Of a stretch of DNA of 64,000 bases, positions 19,569 through 26,413 are shown one piece after another. A model generated the notes under the pieces. The model saw only the letters and a program-made list of their open reading frames with translations. It searched no databases and was not told where the DNA came from. The position numbers and the translations under genes were made by a program. Every line of letters begins with the position of its first letter. Within the stretch, counting starts at the first letter, position 1. Source of the DNA: Hyalangium ruber (GTDB taxonomy: Bacteria; Myxococcota; Myxococcia; Myxococcales; Myxococcaceae); NCBI RefSeq assembly GCF_034259325.1, contig NZ_JAXIVS010000001.1, positions 620,001-684,000 of the forward strand. Reading direction: 5' to 3'.

Positions 19569-22500
19569 TTAGCACGCACTGGGGGAGGGGTGACAGTGTT
19601 CCGAGAAGCCACAATGGAGGGCCTGACAGGTTGCCCTCTCCCGCCCTGGCCACTCCCTCCGGAGATCGCCGCGCGCCAGGGCCCGCACGGCCTCTTCCAG
19701 CCGCCCCGCGGCCTCTTCCAGCCCTCCGGGAATGGTGAGCAGTTCCGGCTCCGGCGAGGGCTCTCCGAGGAAGAGCACGCCTACCCGTACAGTCACTTCG
19801 TCGCGCACCAGACGCCTGGCCGCGAGCCCTTGCGCCACCAGCTCGTGCGCGTACGCCGCCGCACCCAGCGGGTGGCGCTTCCCCGGCCGGTATGCCAGCA
19901 CCCAGGCCTCCCCCTGCGGGGTCTCCCAGAGCAGATCGATTTCGCCTTCCACCGCCACCCGGCTCGGTGCGCCCTTCGGCGAGAGTTCCAGCACGAAGGG
20001 CAGCGCTCGGTGGAGGCTCGCGGACGGGCTCGTGGCCAGCCCTCGAGCGAACGCGGTGGCGAGGAAGCGCTCTCCCATCTTCAGCACCTCCTCCATCCCC
20101 TCGTCGTCCGGGAGCCGGCCCGTGCGCCGCAGCAGCGTCTCCAAGTGCGCGCGACGCTCCGAGGCCGGTGCCTCCGCCAGGCGTGGATCCACGTCCTTCA
20201 AAAGCAGCGGGACGAGTTGCTCCGGCCCTCGCATCTCCAGCCAGGCCTCGGGCTCGACCCAGGGTGGAATGCTCCGCGCGGGCAGCTCCCAGGGCCGCTG
20301 GCCGCGCATCCCCATTTGATGCACGTAGCGATAGCGCCTCGGGCACGCCATGAAGTCCTGGAGCGCCGCAGCCGGGGCGAGGGCAAGCTGTGGATCCGGC
20401 AGCGTGCCCTTCTCCCGGACACGTTGCACGGCGGCCTCGACACGGCCTTCCGCCTCCTGAAGGGCCTCCTCACTCGGCGGCAGCGGATCGGCGGGCGGCG
20501 GCAGCCTGGCCACGTCCAGATCATCCACCCGCGCGCGCAGCCCCGAGTCCACGTCCAGGCGCCCGTCCAGCATGTGCCACCAGGAGTCGGAGGCTCCACG
20601 CTCCGCCGAGCCGGAGAGGATGAGCATGTCCCGCGCTCGCGTGAGCGCCACGTAGAGCAGGCGCCGGTACTCGGCCAGTTCGCGGGCCTTGAGCTCCTCC
20701 TTCACCCGCTCGAAGCGGGCGGAGCTGAAGTCCGCCAGGGTGTCCGGCAGCCACGGCCGCAGGGCCAGTCCGTGGGTCCGCTCGAAGTAGGCGCGAGCGC
20801 CGGTGTTGCGGCGCTTGCCTCCCAACGCGGGCACCACCACCACCGGCCACTCGAGCCCCTTGGCCCGGTGAATGGTGAGCAGTTGCACCGCGCGCGGATC
20901 CCCCGCATCCAGCAGATCCGCCTGAGCCTCCGTCGGGTCCGAGTCGGCCAGCATCCGCAGCTCGCGGGCGAACGCCACACAGCCCCCCGTGCCCCGCTCG
21001 TCTCGCCGGCCCGCCAGGGCGAGCAGCTTGTCGATGTTCGCGCTCACCTGCTCCGCGTACGGCGTGCCCGCCATCGCCTCGCGGTAGCCCGTCACGTCCA
21101 GGGCCACCTGCAGCAGGGCACGCACGCCGAGACGATCCCGCTCCCGCCGCAGCGATGGCAACGCCGCCAGGAAGCGCTCCAGCCGGAGCCGCTCGCGCAC
21201 GGGAATCTCGAACTTGGACAGGTCTCGCTTCTGTACCTCCGCCAGCGACAGCCCGTTCTCGCCCGTCAGCCGGAAGAGCGAGGCGTCCGACAGGCCCACC
21301 AGCGGTGAGCGCAGCACGGCCGCCAGGGCGAGCGCATCGTCCGCGTCCGACAGCAGCGCCAGCAGCGAGGCCAGGTCCAGCACCTCCTGGGCGCCGTAGA
21401 AGCCGCGTCCGCGCAGCACGCGGTGGGGAACGCCGTGGCGAATGAGCGCCTGGCGGTACACCTCCAGGTGCGTGAAGGTCCGCAGCAGCAGGGCCACGTC
21501 TCCACCCCGAGCAGGGCGCAGGCTCTGCCCGTCCTCGTTCGTCACGCACGGAAGCGCGCCCGGGGCCAACATCACCCGCAGGCGCCGGGCCACTGCCTCG
21601 GCGTCGTTATCCCGAGCCTCCGCCGTGGACGCCGCTTCACCGATGAGCAGCCGCTCCACGGCGGGCCCTTCCGCCAGCCCGGTGCGCACCGGCGAGAGGT
21701 CGTCCTCCGCCGGGACGTACTCCACCTCGTAGGGCCGAGGCGGCTCGCTGGCCACCAGCACTCCCGCGAAGGCCCGGTTGAAGAAGTCCAGCAGTGCCGG
21801 CACCGAGCGGCGGTTGTGGCGCAGGAAGTCCCGCGCGCCTCCCTCGGACTCGATCTTCCTCGCCAGCAGAGTGAAGACGGAGACATCCGCGCCGCGGAAC
21901 TCGTAGATGGACTGCTTGCGGTCACCCACCGCGCACAGGAACGCGGGCTCCAGCGGAAGCACGCTCTGGAGTTCCTCGCCCGAGGGGATATGCCGAGGCC
22001 CACCCTCGCGCCGCTCCGCCAGCAGCAGCACCAGCTCCAATTGCAGCCGGTTGGTGTCCTGGAACTCATCCACCAGCAGCGCGCCCATCCGCTGCTGCAC
22101 CTGGAGGCGAAAGGGCGGGTGGTCTCGCAGCAGATCGCGCGCCTTCACCAGCAGGGCGGTGAAGTCGAAGACGTTGCGCCGGGAGAACTCGACCTCGTGG
22201 CGCTCCTCCACTCGGCCCAACAGCTCCCGGAAGGTGGCCTCGAACGGCGCGGACCGCCACGCGGCCAGCGCGTCCTCCAGCCGCAGCACCGAGTCATCAC
22301 TCTTGCCGAAGGTCAGCCAGTACAACGACCGGATGGGCCCCGCGGCGCCCTTGCTCAGTCGCGCGAAGTTGCGGTTGTCAGCCAGGAACGCCGCCTTGAG
22401 CGAGGACAGCCGGTCCGCCTCGGAGATGTTCTCCGGCGTCATCCCCTTCAGCGCGCGCTCGAAGGCGCCCACCAGGCGGCTCCACTCGCCCTTGGCATCC

Positions 22501-23207
22501 AGCCCGCGCGCCGCGTCGCAGTGTCCCAAGGCTTCACGGATGAGCGCCTCCAGCTCCGCGCGGGCCTCCTCCGCGCTGGCGATGCTGGCGGAGGCCGCTC
22601 GCAGGCCCTCCTCTCGCAGCTTGCCGTAGACCTGCCGCAAGCAGGCCACGAGCCCATCGGAGAATCCCGAGCCGGAGAACGTCAGCTCCTGGCACAGCTC
22701 GCGCACCTGCGCGTCGCCCGCCTCCAGCGCGTCCAGCACCACGCGCTCGCACACGTCCTGCACCAGCCCGAGCGCCTCCAGCTCGTCGAGCACCTCGAAG
22801 GAGGGATCGATGCCCAGTCCGGGCGGTGCGCGCCGCAACAGTTGCCCACAGAGCGAGTGGAACGTTCCCACCGTCGCCGCGCCCAGGTCCTCGCGCAGCG
22901 CGCGCCACGTGTCCTGCGAGGGAAAGGGACGCCCCAGCCGATCCAGCGAGGCGCGCAGCTCCGGCTCCCGCGCCTCGCCCTGTGCCAGCGCGTCCAGGCG
23001 GGAGCGCGTGCGCGCGCGCATCTCCGCGGCCGCCTTGTCCGTGAACGTCAGCATGCACAGCCGCGCGGGCTTCACGGGAGGCCCCGCCTGCCGCGCTCCC
23101 GCGAGCAGGTGCAGCACCATCGTCACCAGGCTGTACGTCTTTCCCGCTCCGGCGCCCGCCATCAATGCGAGGTTGCGCTCCAGCGCCAGGGGCGACACCT
23201 CGCTCAT
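19569..23207 (-). CDS. addA: AddA-type UvrD-family helicase with degenerate C-terminal nuclease domain
   Basis: Helicase subunit of an AddAB-type DNA-end-processing complex that prepares double-strand breaks for RecA. The ATG at 23207 gives 1212 residues and overlaps the addB stop as ATGA. SF1A helicase motifs are intact: Walker A GAGAGKT near residue 20, LLVDEFQDTNRLQLE (II), VGDRKQSIYEFRGADV (III), LLTIHRAKGLEWPVVV (V), LLYVALTRARDMLIL (VI). The C-terminal PD-(D/E)XK region keeps the four iron-sulfur-type cysteines (CPRRYRY; CQALHCGFSEHC) and GEIDLLW, but where DYK is expected it reads AYR, and the downstream Gln is not visible. This nuclease is probably inactive. The naming rests on pairing with AddB; a RecB-like name is possible. 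Confidence 0.88.
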   Translation of the reverse strand: MSEVSPLALERNLALMAGAGAGKTYSLVTMVLHLLAGARQAGPPVKPARLCMLTFTDKAAAEMRARTRSRLDALAQGEAREPELRASLDRLGRPFPSQDTWRALREDLGAATVGTFHSLCGQLLRRAPPGLGIDPSFEVLDELEALGLVQDVCERVVLDALEAGDAQVRELCQELTFSGSGFSDGLVACLRQVYGKLREEGLRAASASIASAEEARAELEALIREALGHCDAARGLDAKGEWSRLVGAFERALKGMTPENISEADRLSSLKAAFLADNRNFARLSKGAAGPIRSLYWLTFGKSDDSVLRLEDALAAWRSAPFEATFRELLGRVEERHEVEFSRRNVFDFTALLVKARDLLRDHPPFRLQVQQRMGALLVDEFQDTNRLQLELVLLLAERREGGPRHIPSGEELQSVLPLEPAFLCAVGDRKQSIYEFRGADVSVFTLLARKIESEGGARDFLRHNRRSVPALLDFFNRAFAGVLVASEPPRPYEVEYVPAEDDLSPVRTGLAEGPAVERLLIGEAASTAEARDNDAEAVARRLRVMLAPGALPCVTNEDGQSLRPARGGDVALLLRTFTHLEVYRQALIRHGVPHRVLRGRGFYGAQEVLDLASLLALLSDADDALALAAVLRSPLVGLSDASLFRLTGENGLSLAEVQKRDLSKFEIPVRERLRLERFLAALPSLRRERDRLGVRALLQVALDVTGYREAMAGTPYAEQVSANIDKLLALAGRRDERGTGGCVAFARELRMLADSDPTEAQADLLDAGDPRAVQLLTIHRAKGLEWPVVVVPALGGKRRNTGARAYFERTHGLALRPWLPDTLADFSSARFERVKEELKARELAEYRRLLYVALTRARDMLILSGSAERGASDSWWHMLDGRLDVDSGLRARVDDLDVARLPPPADPLPPSEEALQEAEGRVEAAVQRVREKGTLPDPQLALAPAAALQDFMACPRRYRYVHQMGMRGQRPWELPARSIPPWVEPEAWLEMRGPEQLVPLLLKDVDPRLAEAPASERRAHLETLLRRTGRLPDDEGMEEVLKMGERFLATAFARGLATSPSASLHRALPFVLELSPKGAPSRVAVEGEIDLLWETPQGEAWVLAYRPGKRHPLGAAAYAHELVAQGLAARRLVRDEVTVRVGVLFLGEPSPEPELLTIPGGLEEAAGRLEEAVRALARGDLRREWPGRERATCQALHCGFSEHCHPSPSAC

Positions 23208-26200
23208 GCCCCCTCCTCCACCACCCGCCGCTCCGTAATCCGGCACACCGCGCGGTAGCCGCACCCTCCGCAGTCCTTGGGCCGCATCGCGAACTTCCCC
23301 TCCCGCGTCGCGAGCACCAGGTCCTCCACCGCGTTGGCCAGGTTGAGGCCACCCTCCTCCTTCAGCTTCGCGCGCACCTCCGGCTCCGTGGAGAGCATCC
23401 CCTCCACTTCCTGCGGTGAAAGCACCTCGTCCAGATGCACCGCCGCGCCCGTGCGCAGTGAGAACCACGCCGCCTTGCGCGCCTTCTGGTGGCCGCTCGC
23501 CCGCGCCGCATAGAGGTAGAGCGGCAACTGGAAGTCCGAGGACAGCAGCCGCTTGCGCAGCGTGCGCTCCTCCAGCCGGCCCGACTTGTAGTCGATGACG
23601 CCCACGTCCTCGGCGCCCTTGTCCAGCCGGTCGATCTTCCCCTCGAAGTAGATGGCCTCCTTGCCCGCGTAGAGGAACACGTTCTGCCACGTGTCCTCGT
23701 CCGCCCCCGGACCGAACTTCAGCTCGAAGCCCTGCGGCTCGTACTTCTCGAAGGGCAGGCCCCGCCGCTCGTCCGCCAGGATGCGCCGGACCATCGACTT
23801 CGCCCGCTCCTTGGCCAACTGCCACAGCGCCGGGTGCCCCACGTGGTGGCGCTCCTCGAAGTAGCGCACCGCATCGGCCAGCGCTTCGTTCAGCACCTCC
23901 TCCGGGATCTCCTCCAGGCCCTTGCCCAGCAACCCCTTCTTCTGCAGCCGCTGGAAGACCTCCTCCACCACGCGGTGCCAGAACGTGCCGCGCCCGCGCG
24001 CGTCGAACTCCTCGCCCGGCTCCTCCGGCTCGGCCACCTTCAGCCCGTACGTCAGGAAGCCCTGGAAGCCACAGTTGCCGAAGCGTGCCAGCGCCGAGGC
24101 CGACAGCGGACGGGTGATGTCGAAGCGGAAGGTCTCCCGCAGCGCCTCATCCAGCCCCTCCACCGCGCCCGAGTGCGGGCCCACCCGGGTGCTGGGATTG
24201 CTGAAGAAGTGCAGGCGCTCGACTTCCACGTGCGCCAGCTCTCGCGCGGCGGCGTACCAGACCTCGTCCTCGAAGCGCCGCTTGAGGATCGACGCCGCCA
24301 CATCCGGCTCGGTGACCCGCAGCCGAGGCTGAGCCATCGTCTCCAGCGCCACGCGCTGGCGCAGCTCCGGCTCCGTGAGCACCTCGTCCAGCGGCGGCAC
24401 CGCCATCAGCGAGCGCGCCTCGTACTTCAAGCCCGTGAGCCGCCGCACCTCCTCCAGGAAGGCCGAGGGCACCTGCTCCTGCCCTCCCGCCCCCGCCGCC
24501 CCGAAGGACAGGCTCACCCGCTCCTCGGCCGCCACCAGCGCGCTGGCGAAGAGCAGCCGATCCTCGGTGAGGCGCCAGGGCGCCCGGTCGTCGAACTCGC
24601 CGCCCGTCAGCCGGAAGACGTCGCGCCGCAGGTGCTTGTTGAGCTCGTTGCGATCGGCATCCCCGAGCAGCGGGTGCGGCTCCTCGCGGCCCGGGAAGCG
24701 CCCTTCCGTCATCCCCGCCAGGAAGAGGTAGCCGAAGGTCCGTCCCGGCAGCTCGCGGATGTCCAGCACCTCCACGGCGCCCGAAGCCGGCCCCCGGGGC
24801 GGCAGGTGCGCATCCCGCACCGCGTCCGCCAGCCACCGCCCGAAGGTGCGCCGCGTCAGGCGCGGGCCTCCTCCCACCCGGCGCAGCGCCCGCTCCAGCT
24901 CGCCCACCCGGAGCTGAAGGGCCCGGCGCGCGGCATCGTCGCGAACCCGGGCCTCCAGCGCGTACTCGCCCAGCAGGCCCTCCTCGCGCGGCTGCAGCTC
25001 GCCCTCCGAGTCCATCAGCCCCAGCTGCCGCACCCCGTGCCACCAGGCACTGAGCATCTCCAGCGCGCTGGCCTCGGTGGGGATGCGGCGGCACTCCTCG
25101 ATCAACTTCACGCAGCGTTCGCGCAGCAGGCGCGCGGAGTAAGCACGCGCGTCCTTGGAGGCCACCATGCGCCGAGCCAGGCTCTCGAGCCGCACATCGT
25201 AGGCCCCTCGCCCGCGCGAGGCGCCTAGCCGGTCATCCCGCAGCGCCGCCAGCGTGAAGAGCGTGGCCGGTGCCTGTGGCGCGCCTCGGGAGAGTGTCGA
25301 GGCGTAGCGGCTCGCCACCAACTCCGCCACGCGCTCGGCGGGAAAGCCGTCCTCGACGAGCAGCGGCAGGCCCAGCGCCAGCCGCACCGGCCCCACCAGT
25401 GCCAGCGGCTCACCCCAGGGCAGGCGCGCCGGTACGCCCAGCTCCTCCAGGGCCTCGGCCATCCACCGCGCCTCCGGCCCCGGCTCGCGCCAGGCCACGG
25501 CGATCCGGTCCGGCGCCACCCCGTCCGACACCAGCCGGCGCACGTCGCGGGCGATCTGCCGAGCCTCGTCCCGTGCCGTGGCCACGCTCCACATCCGCAG
25601 CGCATCGCCCTTCGGCGCCTGCGTCCCCCGCGCGACTCGCGGAGAGAAGAGGTGTCGCCCCAGCTCGGTCAACGGGCGCTTGTCGAAGGTGAGGTCCGCC
25701 TTGAAGAGGTCCACATGGCCCACGAGCTCGCCGCGGTTCTCGAAGGCACGGAAGAGAGCCGCCAGCGCCGCGTCCGCCGCCTGCGAGCCTCCCACCGGCG
25801 TCTCCACCCGCAGCGAGACGCGCCGCGCCTCGCATACCGTCGCCAGCCTCAGCAGCAGCTCCAGCCCGGACGGGCGCACGTCGTACACCCCGTGCAGCAC
25901 CAGCGCCCCCACGTCCTCCCAGGCCTCGGGCCACGCGCCCCGCATCAGCGCCTCGCGCGAGCCTCGCAGCACGTCCTCTCGGTCCGCCAGGCCCAGCTCC
26001 GCCATGCGCCGCTCGTAGCCGTCATACAGACGCGCGAGCACCCGCGCGCGCGGCCGGCGCTCCACGGGGAGCACCTCGATGGCATCCTGCAGCTCGCGCG
26101 GCGTCAGCCGGCCCGCCTTCATGTCGAGCACCAGCTCCAGCGCCGCACGCGCGAAGGCCGGCTCGTTCACGAAGTCCCCGAAGGGCGTCTCCTCCAACCC

Positions 26201-26413
26201 CTGCGCCAGCGCGCCCATCAGGACGTGCGAGGTCGCGACCGGACACGGGCGCCGGTTCAGCTCGCCTGCTCCACCCAGCGCGTTCACGAATTCGTCCCAC
26301 GTCAGACAACCCGTTCCCAGCACCAGGCCGCGCGTTTCCCGTGCGGCGCGCAGCACTTGCTGGCGCCGACTCGCGTCGGGGAAGACCTGGAGGGTGCGGT
26401 TGGGACGGGACAT
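23204..26413 (-). CDS. addB: AddB-type nuclease subunit (PD-(D/E)XK nuclease family)
   Basis: Partner of AddA in DNA-end processing. The ATG at 26413 (MSRPNRTLQVFPDASRRQQV) gives 1069 residues. The N-terminal helicase-like half has no Walker A glycine-rich loop, as expected for AddB, which is a structural and Chi-recognition subunit rather than a motor. The C-terminal nuclease domain looks intact: the first iron-sulfur Cys in FGNCGFQGFLTYGL, catalytic residues in YFEGKIDRLDKG and GVIDYKSGR, the Gln in DFQLPLYLYAA, and the last three cysteines in CGGCGYRAVC. It is the first gene of the operon. It is divergent from the PAP2 gene, with only 40 bases between the two starts. Confidence 0.88.
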   Translation of the reverse strand: MSRPNRTLQVFPDASRRQQVLRAARETRGLVLGTGCLTWDEFVNALGGAGELNRRPCPVATSHVLMGALAQGLEETPFGDFVNEPAFARAALELVLDMKAGRLTPRELQDAIEVLPVERRPRARVLARLYDGYERRMAELGLADREDVLRGSREALMRGAWPEAWEDVGALVLHGVYDVRPSGLELLLRLATVCEARRVSLRVETPVGGSQAADAALAALFRAFENRGELVGHVDLFKADLTFDKRPLTELGRHLFSPRVARGTQAPKGDALRMWSVATARDEARQIARDVRRLVSDGVAPDRIAVAWREPGPEARWMAEALEELGVPARLPWGEPLALVGPVRLALGLPLLVEDGFPAERVAELVASRYASTLSRGAPQAPATLFTLAALRDDRLGASRGRGAYDVRLESLARRMVASKDARAYSARLLRERCVKLIEECRRIPTEASALEMLSAWWHGVRQLGLMDSEGELQPREEGLLGEYALEARVRDDAARRALQLRVGELERALRRVGGGPRLTRRTFGRWLADAVRDAHLPPRGPASGAVEVLDIRELPGRTFGYLFLAGMTEGRFPGREEPHPLLGDADRNELNKHLRRDVFRLTGGEFDDRAPWRLTEDRLLFASALVAAEERVSLSFGAAGAGGQEQVPSAFLEEVRRLTGLKYEARSLMAVPPLDEVLTEPELRQRVALETMAQPRLRVTEPDVAASILKRRFEDEVWYAAARELAHVEVERLHFFSNPSTRVGPHSGAVEGLDEALRETFRFDITRPLSASALARFGNCGFQGFLTYGLKVAEPEEPGEEFDARGRGTFWHRVVEEVFQRLQKKGLLGKGLEEIPEEVLNEALADAVRYFEERHHVGHPALWQLAKERAKSMVRRILADERRGLPFEKYEPQGFELKFGPGADEDTWQNVFLYAGKEAIYFEGKIDRLDKGAEDVGVIDYKSGRLEERTLRKRLLSSDFQLPLYLYAARASGHQKARKAAWFSLRTGAAVHLDEVLSPQEVEGMLSTEPEVRAKLKEEGGLNLANAVEDLVLATREGKFAMRPKDCGGCGYRAVCRITERRVVEEGA

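Follow-up and report, generated by a model that had tools for sequence, protein, structure and literature searches.

We report that a 64,000-nucleotide stretch of the Hyalangium ruber genome (the window, taken throughout at its full length) encodes an AddAB complex that has probably become a single-nuclease enzyme. In the reading that we favor (probability about 0.7), AddA acts only as a motor, AddB carries the sole nuclease, the dead nuclease domain of AddA is kept as a folded module, and 3' overhangs would be formed constitutively. This reading draws on motif losses and retained cysteines in AddA and on the sequences of AddB and of the helicase, with the roles of the subunits on the two strands assigned by analogy (Table 1). 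As far as we found, the open-licence literature searched has no earlier description of an AddAB that naturally lacks the nuclease of AddA.

Table 1. Features of the AddAB locus, in window coordinates; counts refer to the 41 AddA or AddB sequences of the window's clade and to 37 intact AddA relatives.
Feature	Position	Strand	Remarks
addA / AddA	19572..23207	minus	1212 aa; intact SF1A helicase and degenerate iron-staple nuclease domain
AddA C-terminal PD-(D/E)XK domain, residues ~945-1212	19572..20375	minus	Active site lost, predicted fold retained
Cys1194, Cys1199, Cys1205 (CQALHCGFSEHC), AddA iron-staple cysteines 2-4	19593..19628	minus	Each 41/41 in clade
Former Q-x3-Y motif, Gln to Glu1122 and Tyr to Gln1126	19830..19844	minus	37/37 intact, 0/41 clade
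Ala1105-Tyr1106-Arg1107 replacing Asp-Tyr-Lys, within VLAYRPGK (19878-19901)	19887..19895	minus	Asp 37/37 intact, 0/41 clade; Lys 24/41 clade
Asp1091 of GEIDLLW (19926-19946), acidic residue retained	19935..19937	minus	41/41 in clade
Ala1068 replacing the RELPF Glu	20004..20006	minus	Glu 37/37 intact, 2/41 clade
Former His motif, residues 996-1004, Pro1000 at the His position	20196..20222	minus	His 37/37 intact, 1/41 clade
Cys955, AddA iron-staple cysteine 1	20343..20345	minus	41/41 in clade
addB / AddB	23204..26413	minus	1069 aa; iron-staple nuclease intact, helicase-like half inactive and lacking Walker A
AddB latch-like LGDADRNEL, residues 583-591	24641..24667	minus	Arg588 corresponds in alignment to the latch Arg629 of B. 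subtilis AddB (PMC4824097)

The two genes overlap through an ATGA, the ATG of addA starting at 23207 and the addB stop codon occupying 23204-23206, and a gene for adenylosuccinate synthetase lies downstream. Pfam detects UvrD helicase domains in AddA, where PDDEXK_1 matches weakly (27.9 bits); in AddB the PDDEXK_1 match is strong (125 bits). Because both proteins score far below the cut-offs of their NCBIfam equivalog models (AddA 219 vs. 861 bits, AddB 84 vs. 904), we name them by gene order, architecture, and relatives. Homologues from Myxococcota diverge from these models in general, intact ones included. The adjacent addB-addA order, the SF1A motifs of AddA and the intact nuclease of AddB with its four-cysteine staple are those of AddAB, and a second, catalytically complete nuclease is missing from AddA. 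The RecB-like subunit has no active nuclease, in disagreement with RecBCD. In AdnAB, each subunit has motor domains and neither nuclease has been lost; here only one subunit has an ATP-binding motor, as AddB lacks Walker A.

A search for RecC (PF04257) gave no match in the window genome, with the E. coli positive control matched, and RecC likewise went undetected in the other sampled members of the window's clade, one genome (G030) excepted. Other PDDEXK_1 proteins of the window genome, which do not belong to AddAB, are L002 (G000:C7:119008-119898) and L004/L005 (G000:C1:1249881-1250924), in frames of 348 and 516 aa. AddA aside, none of the PDDEXK_1 matches of this genome is a long UvrD-nuclease fusion of the AdnAB-like kind. 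With no RecC detected and these other frames short, AddAB is probably the sole enzyme of its class in the window genome.

A first-pass annotation, made from the sequence alone, had pointed out that VLAYRPGK stands in AddA where DYK is expected, that the downstream Gln is missing, and that GEIDLLW and four Fe-S-type cysteines are retained. All of this was confirmed, the cysteines being C955, C1194, C1199, and C1205, and three further losses were found: the His motif (PEQLVPLLLK in the window vs. RGTxxHrLLE in intact relatives), the RELPF Glu, and the Tyr of the Q-x3-Y motif. The His, Glu, Asp, Lys, Gln, and Tyr of the nuclease site are all replaced in the window AddA.

The comparison covered ~80 AddA sequences drawn from the host's order and phylum, 41 from the window's clade and 37 intact relatives that served as reference. 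The C-terminal alignment that the annotation had proposed as a check bears out its claim: the DYK Asp is absent from every clade member (replaced by A, L, V, T, or S) and present in all intact relatives, and the catalytic residues of AddB are conserved in 41/41. Within the clade, the His-motif His and the motif Gly each persist in one AddA, the RELPF Glu in two, and the Gln and Tyr in none; five catalytic or DNA-binding positions found in 37/37 intact Myxococcota relatives are gone in 39-41 of the 41. Sequencing error was rejected as the cause, since the loss occurs in all 41 sampled members. The helicase motifs Walker A, DEFQDT, QSIYEFRGAD, and TRAR are kept in nearly all of 81 rows. When only columns at least 95% conserved in the 37 intact AddA are considered, the clade has lost 9/25 in the nuclease domain vs. 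1/81 in the helicase (Fisher p 5e-6, a guide only, as the sequences are related); thus, it is the active site specifically that has been lost. The 41 related sequences amount to far fewer independent observations, and the independent events number two, or possibly three if L140, a contig from another phylum considered below, is counted.

The position of the DYK Lys varies among K, R, L, and Q, with Lys in 24/41 members; together with the invariant Asp1091, this leaves a weak or altered metal site in AddA conceivable. Migration of residues is well known among PD-(D/E)XK enzymes, and a rebuilt site that still cuts could use, for example, Asp1091 with Glu1153 (both 41/41) or Glu1155 (40/41). We rejected such a migration and give it hardly any probability, because the His, Glu, DYK Asp, Gln, and Tyr have all gone together, while the Lys position itself drifts. 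Asp1091, a residue whose usual role is metal binding, is universal in the clade after the loss of catalysis and is gone in L060, a member of a second loss clade.

AlphaFold2 models (mean pLDDT ~90) of the window AddA domain and of the corresponding domain of an intact relative, L074, contain the same elements. In structural comparisons that included Foldseek, the best fold match of the window domain was AdnA of mycobacterial AdnAB (PDB 6ppr, 7sjr, 9np6; Z 14.6, rmsd 7.2, 247 aligned), and it also matched AddB (Z 12.9, rmsd 4.7, 250 aligned) and Cas4-like iron-staple nucleases; the intact L074 domain matched AdnA with Z 17.3. The dead AddA domain is thus predicted by these models to keep the iron-staple nuclease fold.

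The dead domain is under purifying selection. Median dN/dS among clade pairs is ~0.19 for the domain vs. 0.16 for the helicase, and the values for intact pairs are 0.28 and 0.23. Measured against the helicase, the domain accumulates amino-acid changes faster in dead pairs (median pN ratio 1.84) than in intact ones (1.17); therefore, constraint has been relaxed and is far from absent. All four cysteines are among the 32 of 268 domain positions that are invariant within the clade, and in an alignment of 27 AddA domains, dead and intact (41% mean identity), only six columns are invariant: those of the four Cys, an Arg, and a Leu. Stops or truncations are missing from the domain in nearly all clade members. 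These observations, together with dN/dS well below 1, leave little room for the idea that the domain is merely decaying after becoming redundant with another enzyme. The faster amino-acid change would suit decay, as would the RecC of G030, the earliest-branching clade member, where redundancy could have begun the loss; RecC was undetected in the rest of the sampled clade, and we regard decay as very unlikely.

Six clade-specific residues (W973, E974, W989, W1094, R1111, and E1155) occur in 40-41 of the 41 members and are in the minority or absent in intact relatives. They raise the possibility that the domain has acquired a positive role beyond structure, guiding DNA as a hoop or offering an interaction surface, for which the dead domain of RecC offers a precedent (PMC1185551). 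This is a stronger claim, compatible with the reading of a motor-only AddA, and we consider it possible although doubtful: a degree of invariance is to be expected of a clade younger than the intact set, and the pN ratio exceeds that of intact pairs. In the model, W973, E974, and W989 (window 20241-20291) lie within or beside a low-confidence loop preceding the former His motif. The suggestion in the annotation that the AddA cluster is kept for structure is plausible and a role in binding DNA ends is equally possible, the cluster itself being putative. In the mechanism that we favor, the dead domain, probably iron-sulfur stapled, would line the path of the 3' strand, where the cluster would stabilize the domain and/or assist in gripping the DNA end.

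The AddB nuclease is complete, with His813, Asp928, Asp941, Lys943, Gln962, and Tyr966 and the cysteines Cys781, 1048, 1051, and 1057, in agreement with the earlier statement that IDYKSGR (here located at 23576-23596) and the remaining catalytic residues are intact. His813, Asp941, Lys943, Gln962, Tyr966, and the four cysteines are found in 41/41 clade members. Neither the clade nor its intact relatives show a Walker A at the N-terminus of AddB. The heterodimer thus pairs a single ATP motor, AddA, with a single nuclease, AddB, and the motif losses in AddA beside the intact residues of AddB support the single-nuclease AddAB that the annotation had predicted.

In Bacillus subtilis AddAB, each nuclease has its own strand to cut, the 3'-ended one for AddA and the 5'-ended one for AddB, and Chi acts by holding the 3' strand off the nuclease of AddA (PMC4824097, PMC4027173). 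Our strand assignment is borrowed from this distant relative (the window AddB is 17% identical to a Bacillaceae AddB). By this analogy, AddA would drive unwinding 3'-5' on the 3'-ended strand, AddB would cut the 5'-ended strand, and the 3'-ended strand would survive without a need for Chi, so that probably just one of the two strands at a break is trimmed. If the AddA nuclease is dead and the B. subtilis strand roles hold, the product without Chi would be the same as that after Chi, a long 3' overhang, and the complex would make it constitutively, in the manner of AddAB once modified by Chi or of a laboratory mutant in the AddA nuclease. More tentatively, and at slightly less than even odds, we suggest a permanently recombination-promoting AddAB, with motor and nuclease on separate subunits, resection of the 5' strand only without Chi attenuation, a non-catalytic iron-sulfur domain, and no other AddAB/RecBCD-type resection enzyme in the lineage.

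RecBCD illustrates that one nuclease can serve both strands, and by this precedent the AddB nuclease alone might cut both in a RecB-like manner, leaving the complex a destructive, Chi-regulated exonuclease. The latch Arg588 (41/41 in the clade) and its acidic partner Asp97 (18/19) are conserved, as expected if Chi-type switching still matters. AddAB, however, has a separate channel and nuclease for each strand (PMC4824097, PMC4027173), and AddB is the counterpart of RecC rather than of RecB, which makes a both-strand AddB unlikely in our judgment. Under a motor-only AddA, Chi-like gating may also persist to some degree; with Arg588 and Asp97 kept, the gate could retain a part in pausing, in the release of loops, or in loading RecA. 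The residues of AddB were placed on those of Bacillaceae AddB through a profile-profile alignment, which at 17% identity is unsafe for the Chi-contact residues (equivalents of F68 and F210), and a phmmer search of AddB against the PDB gave no useful match.

The complex shares with B. subtilis AddAB (PDB 3u44, 3u4q, 4cei, 4cej) the adjacent addB-addA genes, the SF1A motor in AddA, and an AddB made of an inactive helicase-like half with a latch and an iron-staple nuclease. In B. subtilis, the nuclease of AddA is active, this subunit is not known to carry a cluster, and AddB has Walker A; the window AddA, by contrast, has the cysteines without the active site, and the window AddB lacks Walker A. 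Where DYK would stand, the crystallised B. subtilis chain 3u44_A has LLAYKS, resembling the natural AYR of the window AddA.

With E. coli RecBCD, the window complex shares a single active nuclease and a sister subunit bearing a dead nuclease-like domain, and the annotation had accordingly placed it functionally closer to RecBCD. This part of its proposal does not hold. The subunits are reversed: RecBCD keeps its nuclease on RecB, the counterpart of AddA, and has its dead domain in RecC, the AddB-like subunit (PMC1185551). With the nuclease on the RecC-like subunit and the RecB-like subunit dead, the window AddAB is thus a mirror image of RecBCD rather than an approach to it. The dead domain of RecC is likewise a PD-(D/E)XK domain retained in the machine without catalysis, on the other subunit (PMC1185551). 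The iron-staple cysteines of the window AddA set it further apart. To our knowledge, the RecC domain has none. The window clade offers a natural separation-of-function experiment, in which iron-sulfur cysteines are parted from nuclease catalysis within one domain. It also asks why bacteria need Chi, if this lineage lives with an enzyme probably unable to degrade the 3' strand, and makes the question testable in cultivable myxobacteria, provided that the clade belongs to Myxococcaceae, to which its genome sizes of 9-14 Mb point.

In a tree built from helicase columns, the main-clade losses all fall on one branch (support 100) and the loss maps to the clade stem; the neighbors of this clade, G063 and G131, are intact and ~50% identical. 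L060 is placed outside the main loss clade, and in a smaller, more careful tree it forms a second loss clade with L082 (100/99). A single origin was recovered in 0/200 bootstrap trees, the starred branches alone being compatible with a single origin, and the loss in L060 and L082 is apparently separate from that in the main clade. Both sequences keep all four AddA cysteines. The RecC of G030 (L097, G030:C11:14446-15441) indicates that this genome probably carries RecBCD beside its degenerate AddAB, a possible picture of the redundancy that permitted loss of the AddA nuclease.

Other phyla were scanned with a regular expression over 37 ORFs containing the C-terminal stretch, whose sequences were then read; nearly all have DYK or an equivalent. 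Among six further candidates for a DYK-less AddA, four carry DYK or DWK and one is a PcrA-like protein. The one left, L140 (L140:10-1569 and beyond), is an AddA-like ORF on a Trueperaceae MAG contig with a C-terminal stretch that lacks DYK, the Gln motif, and the iron-staple cysteines, and it is a candidate for a further loss of the AddA nuclease. AddA-like proteins from Thermoflavimicrobium (L100), a Planctomycetota MAG (L101), and a Tissierellia MAG (L103) have closely spaced iron-staple-type cysteines together with DYK; thus, the iron staple in AddA extends beyond Myxococcota.
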